64,000 nucleotides of DNA from Comamonas testosteroni ATCC 11996 (GTDB lineage: Bacteria > Pseudomonadota > Gammaproteobacteria > Burkholderiales > Burkholderiaceae_C): NCBI RefSeq assembly GCF_000241525.1, contig NZ_AHIL01000026.1:248001-312000 (forward strand), in the 5' to 3' direction. The position numbers and the translations under genes are program-made. Under the pieces are notes generated by a model. That model worked only from the letters and a program-made list of their open reading frames with translations. It ran no database searches and was not told the DNA's origin. Positions 55,063 through 62,511 of the stretch are shown here, piece after piece; position 1 is the first letter of the stretch, and every line of letters starts with the position of its first letter.

Positions 55063-55863
55063 ATGAATCGACGTAGTCTGGTCTTATCCGCCCTGGCCGC
55101 AGGGTTTGCTCAAGTGACGGCAGCTGGCCCCCAGCTTCAAGAAATGACAGAGTGGTCTCGGTTTTTCACAGAAGCCGATGCGCAAGGCAGCATCGTTGTT
55201 CTCGATGCACGTGATAACTCAGAAATTACCCACGTCTACAACGTGTCGCGTTCCAGTCAGCGTTACTCGCCAGCCTCTACCTTCAAGATTCCGCACAGCC
55301 TGTTTGCGCTTGATGCAGGGCTGCTGCGTGACGAATTTCAGCTCATTCAATGGGATGGTGTGAAACGGCCTGTGGCGGCGTGGAACGTGGACCAGAATCT
55401 GCGCTCCGCGATGAGGAACTCCACCGTCTGGGTGTATGAGCGCTTCGCCAAGGAACTCGGCGATGCACGCGAGAGCGCCTATATGCGCAAGATTGGGTAC
55501 GGCAATGCGGTCGCCACTGGCGACAAGCCATTCTGGGTTGAGGGCGACCTCGCCATCTCATCCTTCGAGCAGATTGCTTTCTTGCAACGGCTTTACCGCA
55601 ATCAACTGCCTTTCCAGGTCGAGCACCAGCGGCTTGTGAAGGACGTGATGGTCAATGAAGCGGGGCCTGACTGGATACTGCGTGCAAAAACGGGCTGGAC
55701 CGGAAAAATCGGCTGGTGGGTGGGCTGGGTAGAGTGGCCCAGCGGCCCCGTCTTCTTCGCCTTGAACATGGACACGCCCAACAGACTTGCCGACCTTGCC
55801 AAACGGCAAAGCATCACACGCAATATTCTGCGCTCCATTAAGGCGCTACCCACTTCAGCATAG
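55063..55863 (+). CDS. Class D beta-lactamase, OXA-2-like
   Basis: This periplasmic serine beta-lactamase of 266 residues hydrolyses penicillins, with the carboxylated Lys mechanism. A signal peptide covers about residues 1-21. All class D motifs are present: Ser72-Thr-Phe-Lys75 (STFK), Ser120-Thr-Val (STV), Tyr146-Gly-Asn (YGN), Lys209-Thr-Gly (KTG) and GWWVGWVEWP. Segments such as RSAMRNSTVWVYE and QIAFLQRLYRNQLPF resemble the OXA-2 group. I see no integron attC site or integrase near it, so it looks chromosomal. Confidence 0.95.
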   Translation: MNRRSLVLSALAAGFAQVTAAGPQLQEMTEWSRFFTEADAQGSIVVLDARDNSEITHVYNVSRSSQRYSPASTFKIPHSLFALDAGLLRDEFQLIQWDGVKRPVAAWNVDQNLRSAMRNSTVWVYERFAKELGDARESAYMRKIGYGNAVATGDKPFWVEGDLAISSFEQIAFLQRLYRNQLPFQVEHQRLVKDVMVNEAGPDWILRAKTGWTGKIGWWVGWVEWPSGPVFFALNMDTPNRLADLAKRQSITRNILRSIKALPTSA

Positions 55864-57733: not shown

Positions 57734-58513
57734 TCAGTGGCTTCCCTGGCGATCCACGATCAGTGCAATGTGGTGTCCAGTCAGGTAGAGCGCTATTTCC
57801 GGCGCATCGAACTTCACCGTGGCGGAGCCCAGAGGCACGTCGTCTTCATTCGCGATACGGCTTGCCACAAAATAGGACGGCGTCTTGTTCAGCCGGGCGA
57901 TACCGAACGAATGGTCATTGCCGCCACGCAATGCATCGATCAGATAGGGACGGCCAGAGTAGATCATGCCCACGATGCTGTCAGGCTCGTCCTAGTTGCT
58001 GGCCGTTACCGTGTCGTCCGACATATTGTTCATGAAGATACGGGCATAGCGCAGATCGCTGCAGAGTTCATGCATGAAGTCGCCGACTTTGTGCACCAGC
58101 GAATCCTGCGTGAATTGCGCTGCGCGCTGCTGGCGCGTGAGCATGGACAGACTCGGCGGATCTTAGCGATACCGGGTGGTCAGCTGGATCACCGAGCCCT
58201 GGCGCGCCACCATATTGGTCACACTCAGCATTTCCGTGAACAGCCGGTCCATGATGCGAGCCGTCGTCTTGGCTTCGTATTCGGCGCTGGCCGTCAAGCG
58301 GTCCAGCTCTGCACCCACGACTCGCTTGGACATCCACCACCCCGGACCAGCCACCAAGGTCAGCCACGCAACGGCCATTCCCAGCGTCGCCATGCGCACG
58401 GTGGATCGCATTGACTGCTTGCGCTGAGCTTGCTGCGGTAATGCCTTGCCCACGTACTCTCCCCAGGCCGTTTTGAACGCATGGTAACAAGTACGTCTGG
58501 AGCGAAAAGTCAT
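57734..58513 (-). pseudogene. Broken sensor gene (periplasmic sensor domain only)
   Basis: One reading frame runs across the whole stretch but is cut by a TAA at 58163-58165 and a TAG near 57991, and then ends at 57734. The first part has a membrane helix (TLGMAVAWLTLVAGPGWWM) followed by AELDRLTASAEYEAKTTARI, typical of dCACHE sensors. The last part resumes with IVGMIYSGRPYLIDALRGG and IALYLTGHHIALIVDRQG. The output domain (diguanylate cyclase or kinase) is absent. The start may be at an internal ATG near 58411. Confidence 0.7.
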
Positions 58514-58573
58514 CAGGGAAGCCGATGCCGCGGCCGGAGGAGTCCTCTCCTGTGCATGGCCGCAGGTATGCGG

Positions 58574-58604
58574 CTAAACTAAGTCTGTATCAGTCGGAGT
58601 TATG
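58574..58604 (+). promoter_or_regulatory. Candidate Rrf2 operator upstream of the rrf2-like gene
   Basis: The right arm GTCGGAGTTATG (58593-58604) is identical to one arm of the palindrome at 60671-60701. The left arm (58574-58585, CTAAACTAAGTC) matches in 7 of 12 positions, with the same seven-base spacer. GGAG in the right arm also serves as the ribosome binding site of the gene starting at 58607, so binding could block translation start and transcription. Confidence 0.55.
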
Positions 58605-58606
58605 CG

Positions 58607-59131
58607 ATGAGTTTTTTGAGCGCAGGTGTCGAATATGGCTTGCACTGCATGCTGTACTTGGTTCACTCCGCCGAGCATGGCGTTGCGGAGGCCAGCACCC
58701 GTGACCTTGCAGATATGCAGGGCGTACCAGCGGAGTACGTCGCCAAGCTCTTTACCAAGCTGGGGCATGCTGGACTCGTACGTGCGGCAGAAGGGGTTCG
58801 CGGTGGCTTCTCCCTGGCGCGGCCAGCTGAGAAAATTACGGTGAAAGACGTCGTGGAGGCAATTGATGGCGTGAAGCCGGTGTTCGATTGCCGGGAGGTA
58901 CGAGAGCGCTGTGCTGTTTTTGGCGAAGTCGCTCCCGCATGGGCCACACGTGGCACTTGTTCCATCCATGCAGTGATGGAGGGAGCAGAGAAGGCCATGC
59001 GCGACGAACTCGACCGGCACACGCTTGCGGACCTCGCAAGCCGAACCAGGTCCAAAGCGCCAGCGAGCCACGAAGCCAAAGTCATCGAATGGTTTGGTGC
59101 ACGCTCGGCGGCTCGGCGCTCGACCTCTTAG
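58607..59131 (+). CDS. Rrf2 family transcriptional regulator
   Basis: This 174-residue regulator has a winged helix (about residues 25-70: DLADMQGVPAEYVAKLFTKL and VRGGFSLARPAEKITV). Three Cys follow in FDCREVRERC and RGTCSIHAVM, at positions where Rrf2 proteins such as IscR and NsrR bind iron-sulfur clusters, though the spacing (C-x6-C-x15-C) differs from IscR. It is likely a redox or NO sensor. A palindrome shared with the oxidoreductase gene at 60537 suggests a small regulon. Confidence 0.88.
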   Translation: MSFLSAGVEYGLHCMLYLVHSAEHGVAEASTRDLADMQGVPAEYVAKLFTKLGHAGLVRAAEGVRGGFSLARPAEKITVKDVVEAIDGVKPVFDCREVRERCAVFGEVAPAWATRGTCSIHAVMEGAEKAMRDELDRHTLADLASRTRSKAPASHEAKVIEWFGARSAARRSTS

Positions 59132-59218
59132 TTTGGGATGTGAACGGATATCGGGACACGGTCCTCATGTAGAAGAGGCGCGAGGTCTCTTCCATCGATT
59201 GTCCTGTTTGGAGTTGCC

Positions 59219-59295
59219 AACACACCCCTTGATACCGCGTCGCTTTGCCTTGTCGTACTTCTGTACTACCTGTGGCTTCGCGCCTCGTCTCAACC
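59219..59295 (+). repeat. Dispersed 77-bp repeat, copy 2
   Basis: This is the direct-strand copy of the repeat at 47201-47277. It lies between the convergent Rrf2 and oxidoreductase genes. The similarity continues weakly to about 59340, reaching the end of the oxidoreductase gene. Confidence 0.75.
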
Positions 59296-59331
59296 GCAAA
59301 CCTTCGGTATGCCGGGGCGTGTCAGCCGTTC

Positions 59332-60537
59332 TCAGGCGACGACTATTCGCAGGGGGTCAGCCGACTCCAATGCTTCGGCACGATTCGCCGATGGGGGATA
59401 GATCCATTCGGTGTTGATTTTCTGCTTGAGCGCCTTTGCCTCCGCTCCAACCAGCTTGACCGAGCGCTCCCATCCTTCGGTATAGACCGCTCCCCAGGGG
59501 CCGAGGTCAAGGCAGGTCACATACTTTGGCTGACTATAAGGAATCGGAGCCAGCCCAAGCAGATCGGCGGCAACGTTGTGTCCAGCAGAGCGGCCGAGAT
59601 TCATTGCATGCTGGCACGACATCATGGCTACATGGCCTTGATCGTCAGTCGCGGCGTAGGCGACATCTCCCGTTGCATAGATGGTTGGCACCGCCTTCAC
59701 GCGCAAATCATGGTCAACGTGCAATCGACCGTATGCGTCCCGCTCTCCCGGGATTTGCAATGTGAGTTCATTCGCCCGGGCGCCTGCTGTCCACACGACC
59801 GTGCTTGCATCGATGCGCTGACCGGCCGATGTGACCAATCCATGCTCATCGATAGCGGTCACACCAGCACCCAGAACCGCAGTTACGCCGAGTTCTGCGA
59901 GCGCCTGTTCGATCACCGGCCGCGGGCCCGGCCCGAGGTCGGGTCCAATGTCGCTGTTGCGTTCGACAATCACGACATTCACTGCTGCGCTTTCGCCCAG
60001 GGCCGCACGTAGCCGGGCAGGCATCTCTGCAGCAGTCTCGATTCCGGTAAAGCCGCCCCCGACAACGACAAGGGTACGCCTAGCTTCTGTGTCGGGCTGG
60101 CTGCGAAGGCTCTGAATGTGCGCTTCAAGAGCCGCCGCTTCATCCACCTGATCCACGCTGAAGGCGTATCTGGTGAGCCCCGGAATATCGGGTCGGAAGA
60201 GCTTGCTCCCGGCTGCAAGCACCAGGCGGTCATAGGACAGCTGAGCATCCTGGCCCTGCGCCTTGACGACAACTTGCTGCTGCTGCACGTCAATTTTTTC
60301 GACGCTTCCTTGCATGAACCTCACGCCGACGGCATCAAGCAACTCAGTTAGCTTGACCCGCATGGTGTTTGGGGCTTCCTCGTACAAGCGAGGTCGAACA
60401 TGTAGCTCAGGCTGGGGGGCCACAAGCACAACTTCAATATCGGAACGCTTTTGCATGTCCAGGGCGCGCGCCGCAGCAAGGGCGCTCCACATGCCAGCAA
60501 AGCCTGCACCAACAATCACGATGCGTTGAGTATTCAC
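59332..60537 (-). CDS. FAD-dependent NAD(P)H oxidoreductase, NDH-2-like
   Basis: This 401-residue pyridine-nucleotide disulfide oxidoreductase family protein resembles type II NADH:quinone dehydrogenase. The FAD-binding motif RIVIVGAGFAGMWSALAAA opens the protein, a second dinucleotide fold TLVVVGGGFTGIETAAEM sits near residue 160, and the FAD contact TIYATGDVAYAA near 290. The start is GTG 60537 with GAAGGTG upstream; the frame extends further but without family similarity. A 31-bp palindrome 135 bases upstream is shared with the rrf2 promoter. It is convergent with rrf2. Confidence 0.85.
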   Translation of the reverse strand: MNTQRIVIVGAGFAGMWSALAAARALDMQKRSDIEVVLVAPQPELHVRPRLYEEAPNTMRVKLTELLDAVGVRFMQGSVEKIDVQQQQVVVKAQGQDAQLSYDRLVLAAGSKLFRPDIPGLTRYAFSVDQVDEAAALEAHIQSLRSQPDTEARRTLVVVGGGFTGIETAAEMPARLRAALGESAAVNVVIVERNSDIGPDLGPGPRPVIEQALAELGVTAVLGAGVTAIDEHGLVTSAGQRIDASTVVWTAGARANELTLQIPGERDAYGRLHVDHDLRVKAVPTIYATGDVAYAATDDQGHVAMMSCQHAMNLGRSAGHNVAADLLGLAPIPYSQPKYVTCLDLGPWGAVYTEGWERSVKLVGAEAKALKQKINTEWIYPPSANRAEALESADPLRIVVA

Positions 60538-60670
60538 AGATTCACCTTCATCCCACGTATCACGGCATGCTCGGTTGGCCTGTTGGCTCACCGAGGTCCG
60601 GTAGGAGTATCGACAACTGGCGCGCAGGAGACCGCCTTGGCTCGGCAGACTGGAAGTCGCCGGTCGAACA

Positions 60671-60701
60671 CATAACTCCGACAATCATAGTCGTAGTTAT
60701 G
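60671..60701 (-). promoter_or_regulatory. Candidate Rrf2 operator upstream of the oxidoreductase
   Basis: CATAACTCCGAC-AATCATA-GTCGTAGTTATG has 12-base arms with one mismatch and a seven-base spacer. One arm (read on the minus strand) is identical to the element before the rrf2-like gene. Confidence 0.65.
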
Positions 60702-61110
60702 TGAGAGCACATCAAATGGAAGATTCCCGGCCAAAGATTGAGGATTTCAGCTGTTGCAATAGAGATGCAAAGGACGCCGCGAGTGAAGGGCGCACGAGTG
60801 ATCGCCGGTGTGCCTGGTGCGGGTTGACCTTGCTCCCTGCAAAGTGGATTTCTTCACCCTGTTCAAGAAACGACAAAGGGACAAGCAATGGCAGCAAGTC
60901 GGTGCGTAGCACACGCTTGAAATTCAAGCCACCAGACGCATGCCAGGTCCGTGGTGGGCAATCGCAACCGGTGGTCGTAGCGATTCAGGGCATTCCAAGG
61001 CCAGCCAGAGCGGTGAGGGCGCTTACAAAGCCGGATTAGTCGATGGTTGAAGCGGCTGGATGCGACCGCATTGAGGGAGCTCCCGAAGGGGAGCCGTTTT
61101 TCCCGAGTAC
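60702..61110. other. Intergenic region without a recognised gene
   Basis: A plus-strand open frame (60701-61039) and a minus-strand frame (60712-60927) exist, but neither resembles a protein family. A GCTCCC-GAAG-GGGAGC hairpin followed by CGTTTTT (61079-61101) looks like a plus-strand terminator with no clear gene in front of it. The stretch may hold a small RNA or a decayed gene. Confidence 0.35.
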
Positions 61111-62511
61111 TTAAACCACCGCAGCGCTGAACGGCTCGGGCCTTCTCGCCAGCAGATGAGACAGCCTTTGAAGGCCCGTCTGCAAGCGTCTGCGGTCCTT
61201 GATGCTGCCCAACGAGATACGAATGGCATTGACGGAGTCGCTGCTGGCGGCACTAGTTGTGAATGCCTCCGCCGGCGTGACTGCGATACCCTCGCTGCCG
61301 GCTGCACGCGCAAGCTGTGAGGAGCTCCAATACCCTGGCAACTCGAGCCATACATGAAGGCCGTCTCCAGTGCCGCTGTACCTCCCCGCAAGAATATCCC
61401 TGGCCATCCAGTGGCGCAGACGCGCCTCCTTACGTACGCCTTCCATCAACGCGGCAGCCGAGCCGTCGAGGATCCACTGTGTGGCCAGTGCGGCCGTCAG
61501 AGGTGCGACCATCAGCGCAAATGACCTGAGCGCGACCAGAAAACGTTCACGTTCATACTGGTCACGTATGAGCACGAAGGCGACACGCAAGCCGGGCGTC
61601 AGGCACTTCGACAGGGTCGAGATGTAGGACACCTGTTCCGGGGCAAACGTGGCAATAGGTGGTGGCGGTGCATCGGCAAGCAGCCAGTAGGGGTCATCTT
61701 CGACGATGCGTACAGTGCAGCGCTTGGCGATTTTGGCGAGCTCCTTGCGCCGGCGCTCCGGAATGGTGATGGCGGTCGGGTTCTGCAATGTAGGGTTGAG
61801 GTAGACCAGCCGAGGCTGGTGCTGATGGCAGGCTTGCTCCAGCATCTCGGGCACCATCCCGTGCTGATCCGCTTCCACCGCAACGATGCGTCGGCCGAAC
61901 TGGGTCGCAGCAGTACGCAGGCCCGGATAACTTGCTGGCTCTGTCATTATCACATCGCCAGGCTTCGTCAGCGCCAAGATCAATGCGGCAATTGCTGCTT
62001 GCGCGCCCGGACAGACAACAACCTGCGCTGAATCCAGGGATCCAAACATCGGCTCCAGCCATCTGGCTCCTGCCTTACGGTCGGAGTCGCTTCCTCCGCC
62101 CAGGTGGTAAGTCATCAGCAATGTGGTGTCTGCCCCCATCATTACCTGAGAAAGGCCTTGTTTCAGCAGGTCGTCGAAGTCCACGCCAGCGGGTGGGGGC
62201 GGTGTGTTCATGCTCAGGTCGAGGACCGAGGTCAGCTCAACTTTCGGTGCCGCGACATAGGTACCTCGCGCGCCGCGGCCCTCCAGCAGATGGCGGCGTC
62301 TGGCTTCGTCGTATGCGCGCGTGACCGTCGTCAGGTCGAGGTTCAGCTGTGCTGCCAGCTGGCGCTGCGGAGGCAGACGATCACCCGGTTTGAGCGATCC
62401 GTCTGCCATTGCCGCCTGCAAGGCATCCGCAATCTGCAAGAAGCGCGGCCCGCCATGCACGGCCAATCGCGGCAGCCAAACTGGCAAACTGTCATCTTGT
62501 ATGGTTTTCAT
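61111..62511 (-). CDS. MocR-type regulator (GntR winged helix fused to PLP aminotransferase domain)
   Basis: This 466-residue protein has an N-terminal GntR winged helix (about residues 15-85: LKPGDRLPPQRQLAAQLNLDLTT) fused to a class I aminotransferase-like domain (about 100-450). The PLP-binding Lys is in YISTLSKCLTPGLR and the aspartate in RIVEDDPYWLL. Members such as GabR and PdxR act as sensors of amino compounds or PLP. It is divergent from a small membrane protein gene, with TGTATGG repeats between and at its start. Confidence 0.9.
   Translation of the reverse strand: MKTIQDDSLPVWLPRLAVHGGPRFLQIADALQAAMADGSLKPGDRLPPQRQLAAQLNLDLTTVTRAYDEARRRHLLEGRGARGTYVAAPKVELTSVLDLSMNTPPPPAGVDFDDLLKQGLSQVMMGADTTLLMTYHLGGGSDSDRKAGARWLEPMFGSLDSAQVVVCPGAQAAIAALILALTKPGDVIMTEPASYPGLRTAATQFGRRIVAVEADQHGMVPEMLEQACHQHQPRLVYLNPTLQNPTAITIPERRRKELAKIAKRCTVRIVEDDPYWLLADAPPPPIATFAPEQVSYISTLSKCLTPGLRVAFVLIRDQYERERFLVALRSFALMVAPLTAALATQWILDGSAAALMEGVRKEARLRHWMARDILAGRYSGTGDGLHVWLELPGYWSSSQLARAAGSEGIAVTPAEAFTTSAASSDSVNAIRISLGSIKDRRRLQTGLQRLSHLLARRPEPFSAAVV

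Follow-up and report, generated by a model that had tools for sequence, protein, structure and literature searches.

A 64,000-nucleotide stretch of the Comamonas testosteroni ATCC 11996 genome (contig NZ_AHIL01000026.1, positions 248,001 to 312,000; hereafter the window) carries a convergent pair of genes, rrf2 and ndh, which encode an Rrf2-family regulator and an NDH-2-like FAD/NAD(P) oxidoreductase. One sequence motif is shared by two putative operators, of which one lies immediately before rrf2 and the other upstream of ndh, and the pair occupies an insertion that is absent from close relatives. The two genes probably constitute a self-contained, horizontally acquired redox switch, in which an RsrR-type repressor would control both itself and ndh.

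Operator-like sites before rrf2 and upstream of ndh

The regulator gene rrf2 (58607..59131, plus strand, 174 amino acids) is placed as an RsrR-type member of the Rrf2 family by a Pfam Rrf2 match of 5.2e-33, by alignment and by tree. The oxidoreductase gene ndh (59332..60537, minus strand, 401 amino acids; Pyr_redox_2, 4.4e-49) starts with GTG at 60537; homologues align only from about this position, and the reading frame is open further upstream, from a TTG at 60684. The 12-mer GTCGGAGTTATG lies at 58593-58604 on the plus strand, 2 nt short of the rrf2 start codon (ATG, 58607). Its second copy, at 60671-60682 on the minus strand, forms one arm of a palindrome, the other arm of which is GTCGTAGTTATG at 60690-60701 on the plus strand with one mismatch. 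This 12-7-12 palindrome keeps 11 of 12 pairs and is extended by one flanking A/T pair to a 13-7-13 palindrome with one mismatched pair (60670..60702), which lies 133-165 nt upstream of the ndh start with its centre at 149 nt. The rrf2-side putative operator (58574..58604, plus strand) combines an intact right arm, the 12-mer itself, with a degenerate left arm at 58574-58585 that keeps 7 of 12 pairs when counted by eye. The original prediction, which was made from the window alone, had described a motif before rrf2 with a degenerate second arm and a near-perfect 12-7-12 palindrome before the oxidoreductase gene; the placement is exact to the base, and the pair counts bear out both descriptions. 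A GGAG inside the rrf2-side right arm stands at ribosome-binding distance.

The motif is rare. The exact 12-mer occurs twice in the 5,410,155-base genome, both times at the rrf2-ndh locus, and its backwards control occurs once. With up to one mismatch, 10 places are found in the genome, 3 of them at this locus. The palindrome pattern with up to three mismatches matches 11 places and its backwards control 89; a single mismatch is seen at the ndh site alone, and the rrf2 site is among ten with three. The exact count and the pattern scan thus reject a common genomic repeat. Within the 64-kb window, three matches with up to two mismatches correspond to the chance level (mean 2.43), and the strength of the motif case lies in exactness, position and conservation, not in this count. 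A genome-wide search with a profile of operator sites (R1) returned the ndh site only, at E 8e-4. This profile left out the window and loci L113, L115, L116 and L117, and two sites within ndh coding sequence were removed from its 57; the scan used a loose first filter, and the weak rrf2 site was missed. No wide regulon was found in the source genome by these pattern and profile scans, which rose above noise at the rrf2-ndh locus only.

Conservation of the site before rrf2 was assessed with a motif that is independent of the window. According to excerpts of PMC5015018, the probes used in electrophoretic mobility shift assays of Streptomyces venezuelae RsrR contain ACTCGGA-N9-TCCGAGA and ACTCGGA-N9-TCCGAGT (here and below, the published papers are cited from excerpts). 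The window ndh site, ACTCCGA-N9-TCGTAGT, has the same spacing and 11 of the 14 core letters, and the rrf2 site has 10 of 14. The Streptomyces core was scored in the 100 nt before rrf2 at 39 loci against other stretches of each locus. These loci are the window, two further matches, 19 from searches of the order, class and phylum, and 17 plasmid loci picked for genus spread from the best 40 of 326 plasmid records. An empirical p of at most 0.05 was obtained in 30 of the 39 regions, the nine others being L084, L085, L101, L102, L106, L115, L116, L117 and L125. With ties broken randomly, 30/39 loci had their best core match within a single 9-nt band, with site centres 12-20 nt ahead of the start; when random stretches of these loci were drawn 500 times, the fullest band never held more than 13 (mean 8.7). 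The count was 28/38 when the window was left out and 17/23 in a thinned set, for which 500 draws gave at most 12. A split test gave 17/20 against 2.2 expected, although the band had been set after all loci were inspected, so that this is not a true hold-out. When 300 nt were searched, the band from -28 to -11 held the best match in 25/39 loci (22 without ties), and this lower count is due in part to competition from ndh-side sites. The operator of RsrR is an 11-3-11 palindrome at the regulator's own promoter. Its core and spacing recur in most homologues, but in the window one arm of the rrf2 site is degenerate, and a matrix of proteobacterial sites gives the Streptomyces sites low scores.

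The ndh sites can be treated as a prediction from the rrf2 sites. From 34 rrf2-upstream sites we derived a matrix (five of the 39 regions, with a core score below 9, were not entered), which was applied with each locus left out in turn. In the window it gives 31.7 bits for the ndh site and 20.7 bits for the rrf2 site, and the next best place in 7 kb reaches 5.4. An ndh homologue is present in 25 of the 39 stretches around rrf2. A site of at least 23.8 bits lies upstream of ndh in 6/7 convergent, 11/11 divergent and 1/7 tandem loci; the convergent locus without it is a broken copy (L113), the tandem locus with it is a Sphingopyxis plasmid with a truncated ndh, and a second tandem locus, L117, reaches 11.1 bits. 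No shuffled locus (n=195, dinucleotide content roughly kept) exceeded 17.7 bits, and 13 bits were reached at 2 places in 1.43 Mb. Transcription from the rrf2 promoter could serve ndh in tandem loci, and the counts by orientation indicate that the site is kept where ndh needs a promoter of its own and is mostly absent otherwise. The comparison across loci therefore argues well for the shared control of regulator and oxidoreductase that had been proposed for the window. When the 18 ndh sites are read toward ndh, T stands at -9 from the operator edge in 16, T at -8 in 16 and G at -7 in 15, and by eye many loci have a TATA-like stretch at the centre of the operator, some 17 nt away from this TTG. 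Such an overlap points to repression by covering the promoter.

Other operator-like sites and copies were seen at these loci. Three related genomes have a third matrix match (16-19 bits) at +563 within the ndh coding sequence (L123 2964-2992; L126 near 2616, with rrf2 turned to the plus strand; L128 5119-5147), which may reflect protein conservation or an internal site. On the Sphingopyxis granuli plasmid pRW412a (L106, 3690-4854), ndh is truncated just before IS6100, and no other operator scored as high as the one upstream of it (33.4 bits). Genome G944 holds, besides the intact L112, a broken second copy of rrf2 and ndh, which is L113.

The regulator and the oxidoreductase

By sequence, profile and tree, the rrf2 product is RsrR-type. 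Its best PDB match is RsrR of S. venezuelae (1.3e-23), with 86.9 bits in phmmer compared with at most 42.4 bits for any other Rrf2 structure. A 26-row profile searched against Rrf2 structures gives 125 for RsrR and 63 for the next. In a 64-row tree, 38 homologues and S. venezuelae RsrR are joined at 99/96, apart from 25 other Rrf2 rows. Within this group, S. venezuelae RsrR stands with L115 and L116 (100/99), and the window belongs to a branch of the other 36 rows that has weak support (80/41). The tree carries a long-branch warning and leaves out the broken paralogue L113; its 25 other rows are 23 distant Rrf2 matches after removal of duplicates, for which "IscR/NsrR-type" is our own label, and fragments of NsrR and IscR. 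The product does not reach the NCBIfam equivalog cut-offs for NsrR (54.8 bits against 182), IscR (51.4 against 207.55), RirA, CymR and the SUF regulator. A structural model with a mean predicted local distance difference test score (pLDDT) of 69 retrieved RsrR chains first by E-value, at template-modelling scores (TM-scores) of 0.45-0.51, but CymR chains reached higher TM-scores (up to 0.52 and 0.72). The fold search is therefore not discriminating, and the placement leans on sequence.

The [2Fe-2S] cluster of RsrR is held by E8, H12, C90 and C110 (PMC9218516), and alignment maps these positions to E9, H13, C95 and C118 of the window protein. They are kept in 38, 39, 39 and 38 of 39 rows, respectively, and the exceptions are in the broken paralogue L113. 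A third cysteine, C102, is present in 29/39 rows, and C14 in 33/39. Trp9, the switch residue of RsrR (PMC9218516), and His33, for which the source is the title of a PDB entry on an H33A variant, are replaced by Tyr10 and Gln38. The two positions covary: 37 rows, including the window, have Tyr/Gln, three (S. venezuelae RsrR, L115 and L116) have Trp/His, and none is mixed. Because of this replacement the protein is better called an RsrR-like variant than RsrR. The original prediction had invoked a cysteine-containing Rrf2 protein that could sense redox stress, nitric oxide or cluster loss. Redox sensing is favoured by the RsrR-type placement and the Glu/His/Cys/Cys ligand positions; sensing of nitric oxide or of cluster loss, which are the mechanisms of NsrR and IscR, is disfavoured by the same placement, and the third cysteine is not general.

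The product of ndh is NDH-2-like and probably oxidises NAD(P)H. Its closest solved relatives are NDH-2-type enzymes (best PDB match 4nwz), and the Rossmann motifs G10xG12xxG15 and G160xG162xxG165 are invariant in 23/23 homologues. At the place of AQxAxQ, the quinone-site motif of NDH-2, it carries M-S/T-CQHA, with the glutamine kept. It scores below the cut-off of all 25 NCBIfam families listed, of 30 matched, and an AlphaFold model (pLDDT 52.5) was too poor to search. The suggestion of a respiratory bypass enzyme is therefore upheld only so far as NDH-2 is nearest among solved structures; with the altered motif, a respiratory role is not supported. C308 and C342 are invariant in the same 23/23 homologues; they lie near the place of the NDH-2 quinone site and are possibly redox-active.

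The insertion and its surroundings

The rrf2-ndh unit occupies about 2,478 bp (58549..61026). The close relatives G016 (L150) and G018 (L149) align with the window to 58548 and resume at 61027, with 6-7 bp in between, and a third relative, G020 (L151), has the same empty junction; three more distant relatives aligned over the downstream gene only and are uninformative on the insertion. From the relatives' empty junctions, the unit is an insertion beside a decayed gene, and it was probably acquired horizontally. The 100 nt at each end have no direct or inverted repeat of 8-12 bp in common. An insertion sequence was rejected, as the ends lack common repeats and no transposase was recognised by eye in the list of open reading frames (ORFs), no family search having been made. 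With respect to a phage origin, the closest matches in a phage collection are 49% identical and lie in two contigs labelled Acinetobacter phage.

The pair is sparsely distributed. Neither gene was found in 36 other genomes of the genus, in which rrf2 matches are distant (E about 1e-9 or worse). With the source genome included, a homologue is present in 3/399 genomes of the order at E 1e-15, and in 5/369 of the class and 15/398 of the phylum at 1e-25. Some of the 14 loci without ndh again have redox-linked neighbours: a flavodoxin-fold NAD(P)H oxidoreductase on a Psychrobacter plasmid, proteins with NmrA-like matches on Sinorhizobium, Azospirillum and Rhizobium plasmids, and elsewhere cupins and an alternative oxidase. 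Beside rrf2 in L061, L097 and others, no clear redox partner was seen. The unit may be mobile cargo on small plasmids. A regulator and a redox enzyme lie near a recombinase gene in L085 (Pseudomonas sp. pA4J1, 10.6 kb) and L084 (Psychrobacter plasmid, 24 kb). A homologue of ndh was also matched at E 1e-60 on thirteen Escherichia plasmids.

The decayed gene to the left is the remnant of a GGDEF gene (57741..58548, minus strand; GGDEF by eye). A relative holds the whole gene as an intact 566-amino-acid ORF (L149 2765-4465), and the window remainder is broken into short ORFs. The adjacent window bases 57742 and 57741 map to L150 4426 and 3510, so that about 0.9 kb is missing from the remnant. To the right lies a MocR-type GntR/aminotransferase regulator gene (61114..62511, minus strand), which is present in 18/23 genus relatives searched; over this gene a Diaphorobacter plasmid has an 84% DNA match, the sole near DNA match among plasmids. 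A Transpeptidase-domain gene at 55063-55863 (plus strand), presumably a class D (OXA-like) beta-lactamase gene, lies outside the insertion, because a very similar ORF was seen by eye in a relative (L149 6271-7071).

Proposed circuit, rival explanations and known systems

In the proposed circuit, an RsrR-type dimer would ligate a [2Fe-2S] cluster, with C95 and C118 contributed by one subunit and E9 and H13 by its partner. The protein with the oxidised cluster is predicted to bind ACTCsGA-N9-TCsGAGT palindromes before rrf2 and upstream of ndh, and to repress both genes by blocking their promoter or start region. Reduction (or loss) of the cluster would release the protein from the DNA, and the NDH-2-like flavoprotein would be made, transferring electrons from NAD(P)H to an acceptor such as a quinone and thereby restoring redox balance. 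The oxidised form of RsrR is the tight-binding one (PMC5015018; PMC11138216), so that induction is expected upon reduction, which fits an NAD(P)H-oxidising enzyme. This redox direction is borrowed from RsrR, a protein with other switch residues, and is the weakest link of the account. It is conceivable, but we propose it tentatively, that the unit is a portable reductive-stress valve, in which a Tyr/Gln-variant [2Fe-2S] repressor reads over-reduction of the cytoplasm and induces one NAD(P)H-oxidising flavoenzyme via a dedicated operator. Sensor, operator and effector would then travel together across alpha-, beta- and gammaproteobacteria, whether on chromosomes or on plasmids; their arrangement would change, but the site would be kept where a separate promoter needs it.

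Several observations weigh against the circuit. The rrf2-side site overlaps a likely ribosome-binding sequence, reaches a core p of only 0.038 and does not reach E = 10 in the genome-wide profile search. The window ndh operator lacks the TTG that stands 7-9 nt upstream in most loci, and a simple promoter scan found no sigma-70-like promoter. With the proteobacterial matrix, the two Streptomyces sites reach no more than 13.6 and 14.4 bits, less than the best shuffle, so that the operators resemble each other without being identical. As the loci share ancestry, the counts are not independent events and the p-values are too small. Furthermore, 14/39 homologues have no ndh in the stretch read, the source genome holds two further Rrf2 paralogues, and, with Trp9 and His33 replaced, the published release mechanism may not carry over.

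Three other explanations were weighed. The common 12-mer might be coincidental, the copy before rrf2 being a ribosome-binding sequence and the palindrome on the ndh side having nothing to do with it. Because GGAG occupies the ribosome-binding position, the rrf2-side arm alone is weak evidence, and its degenerate left arm is in line with coincidence. However, the exact 12-mer is confined to this locus, the palindrome stands at the same place in most homologues, several of which have no GGAG in it (L107 and L109, for example, have TCCGCGT), and the ndh sites are predicted from the rrf2 sites; we therefore regard coincidence as hardly credible. In favour of an NsrR-like nitric oxide sensor or an IscR-like sensor of cluster status, the window protein has three cysteines in the right region, and NsrR is described with three cysteines and Asp8 (PMC5411485). 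The corresponding residue here is Glu9 and not aspartate, the third cysteine is not conserved, the operator resembles RsrR sites, and the NCBIfam cut-offs, phmmer, the profile and the tree all reject the placement, which makes such a sensor very improbable.

A rival that keeps the operator logic is less easily set aside, though we consider it unlikely: a sensor of thiols or of electrophiles and quinones acting through C95, C102, C118 or C14, or a sensor of Fe-S cluster loss, in place of a reversible [2Fe-2S] switch. The frequent extra cysteine C102 would suit it, SifR is an Rrf2 quinone sensor (PMC9218516), and the Psychrobacter plasmid homologue has a 30.6-bit site between rrf2 and the gene for its NAD(P)H-dependent flavodoxin-fold oxidoreductase. 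However, C102 and C14 are variable, whereas E9, H13, C95 and C118 are invariant apart from the broken paralogue, and a thiol sensor leaves the conserved glutamate and histidine unexplained. The RsrR-type switch accommodates all four ligand positions and is preferred.

With NDH-2 (e.g. PDB 4NWZ and 5NA1) the enzyme shares two Rossmann motifs and a similar length, and these are its best PDB matches, but it differs in CQHA for AQxAxQ, in the invariant C308 and C342, and in its scores against the NCBIfam families. NsrR and IscR belong to the same family as the regulator, with an Fe-S region and short palindromic operators, but they do not fall on the RsrR side of the tree. SifR of Streptococcus pneumoniae is likewise an Rrf2 repressor linked to quinone and redox chemistry; its subgroup has a single conserved cysteine in HxxPNPxC (PMC9218516), a motif that was not seen by eye in the window protein.

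RsrR of S. venezuelae (Sven6563; PDB 6HSD) is the closest known system, sharing family and E/H/C/C ligand positions, with a similar operator half-site and spacing, a putative site at its own promoter and an NAD(P)H-linked neighbour gene. RsrR represses that neighbour and binds sites between it and rsrR (PMC5015018). Unlike RsrR, the window protein has Tyr/Gln for Trp9/His33 and one extra cysteine; its partner is an NDH-2-like enzyme, whereas that of RsrR is NmrA, and two sites were found in the source genome compared with 630 sites mapped by chromatin immunoprecipitation with exonuclease digestion (ChIP-exo) for RsrR (PMC5015018). What appears to be new here is a proteobacterial RsrR branch, an NDH-2-like target and Tyr/Gln in place of Trp9/His33. 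Among the matches listed from open-licence PMC papers, with subscription literature outside this scope, none stood out as dealing with proteobacterial RsrR-type control of an NDH-2-like enzyme. The exchange of Trp/His for Tyr/Gln is a natural experiment on how the redox state of the cluster reaches the DNA-binding domain. Deletion of rsrR is reported to give no phenotype, and the neighbour gene was the one class 1 target to change (PMC5015018); the signals acting on RsrR in vivo are described as little known (PMC12594620). With a single predicted enzyme target in so small a circuit, both the signal and the physiological output would be directly measurable. The switch of RsrR is solved while its job is unclear, and the similar regulator of the window appears to be paired with a single enzyme.

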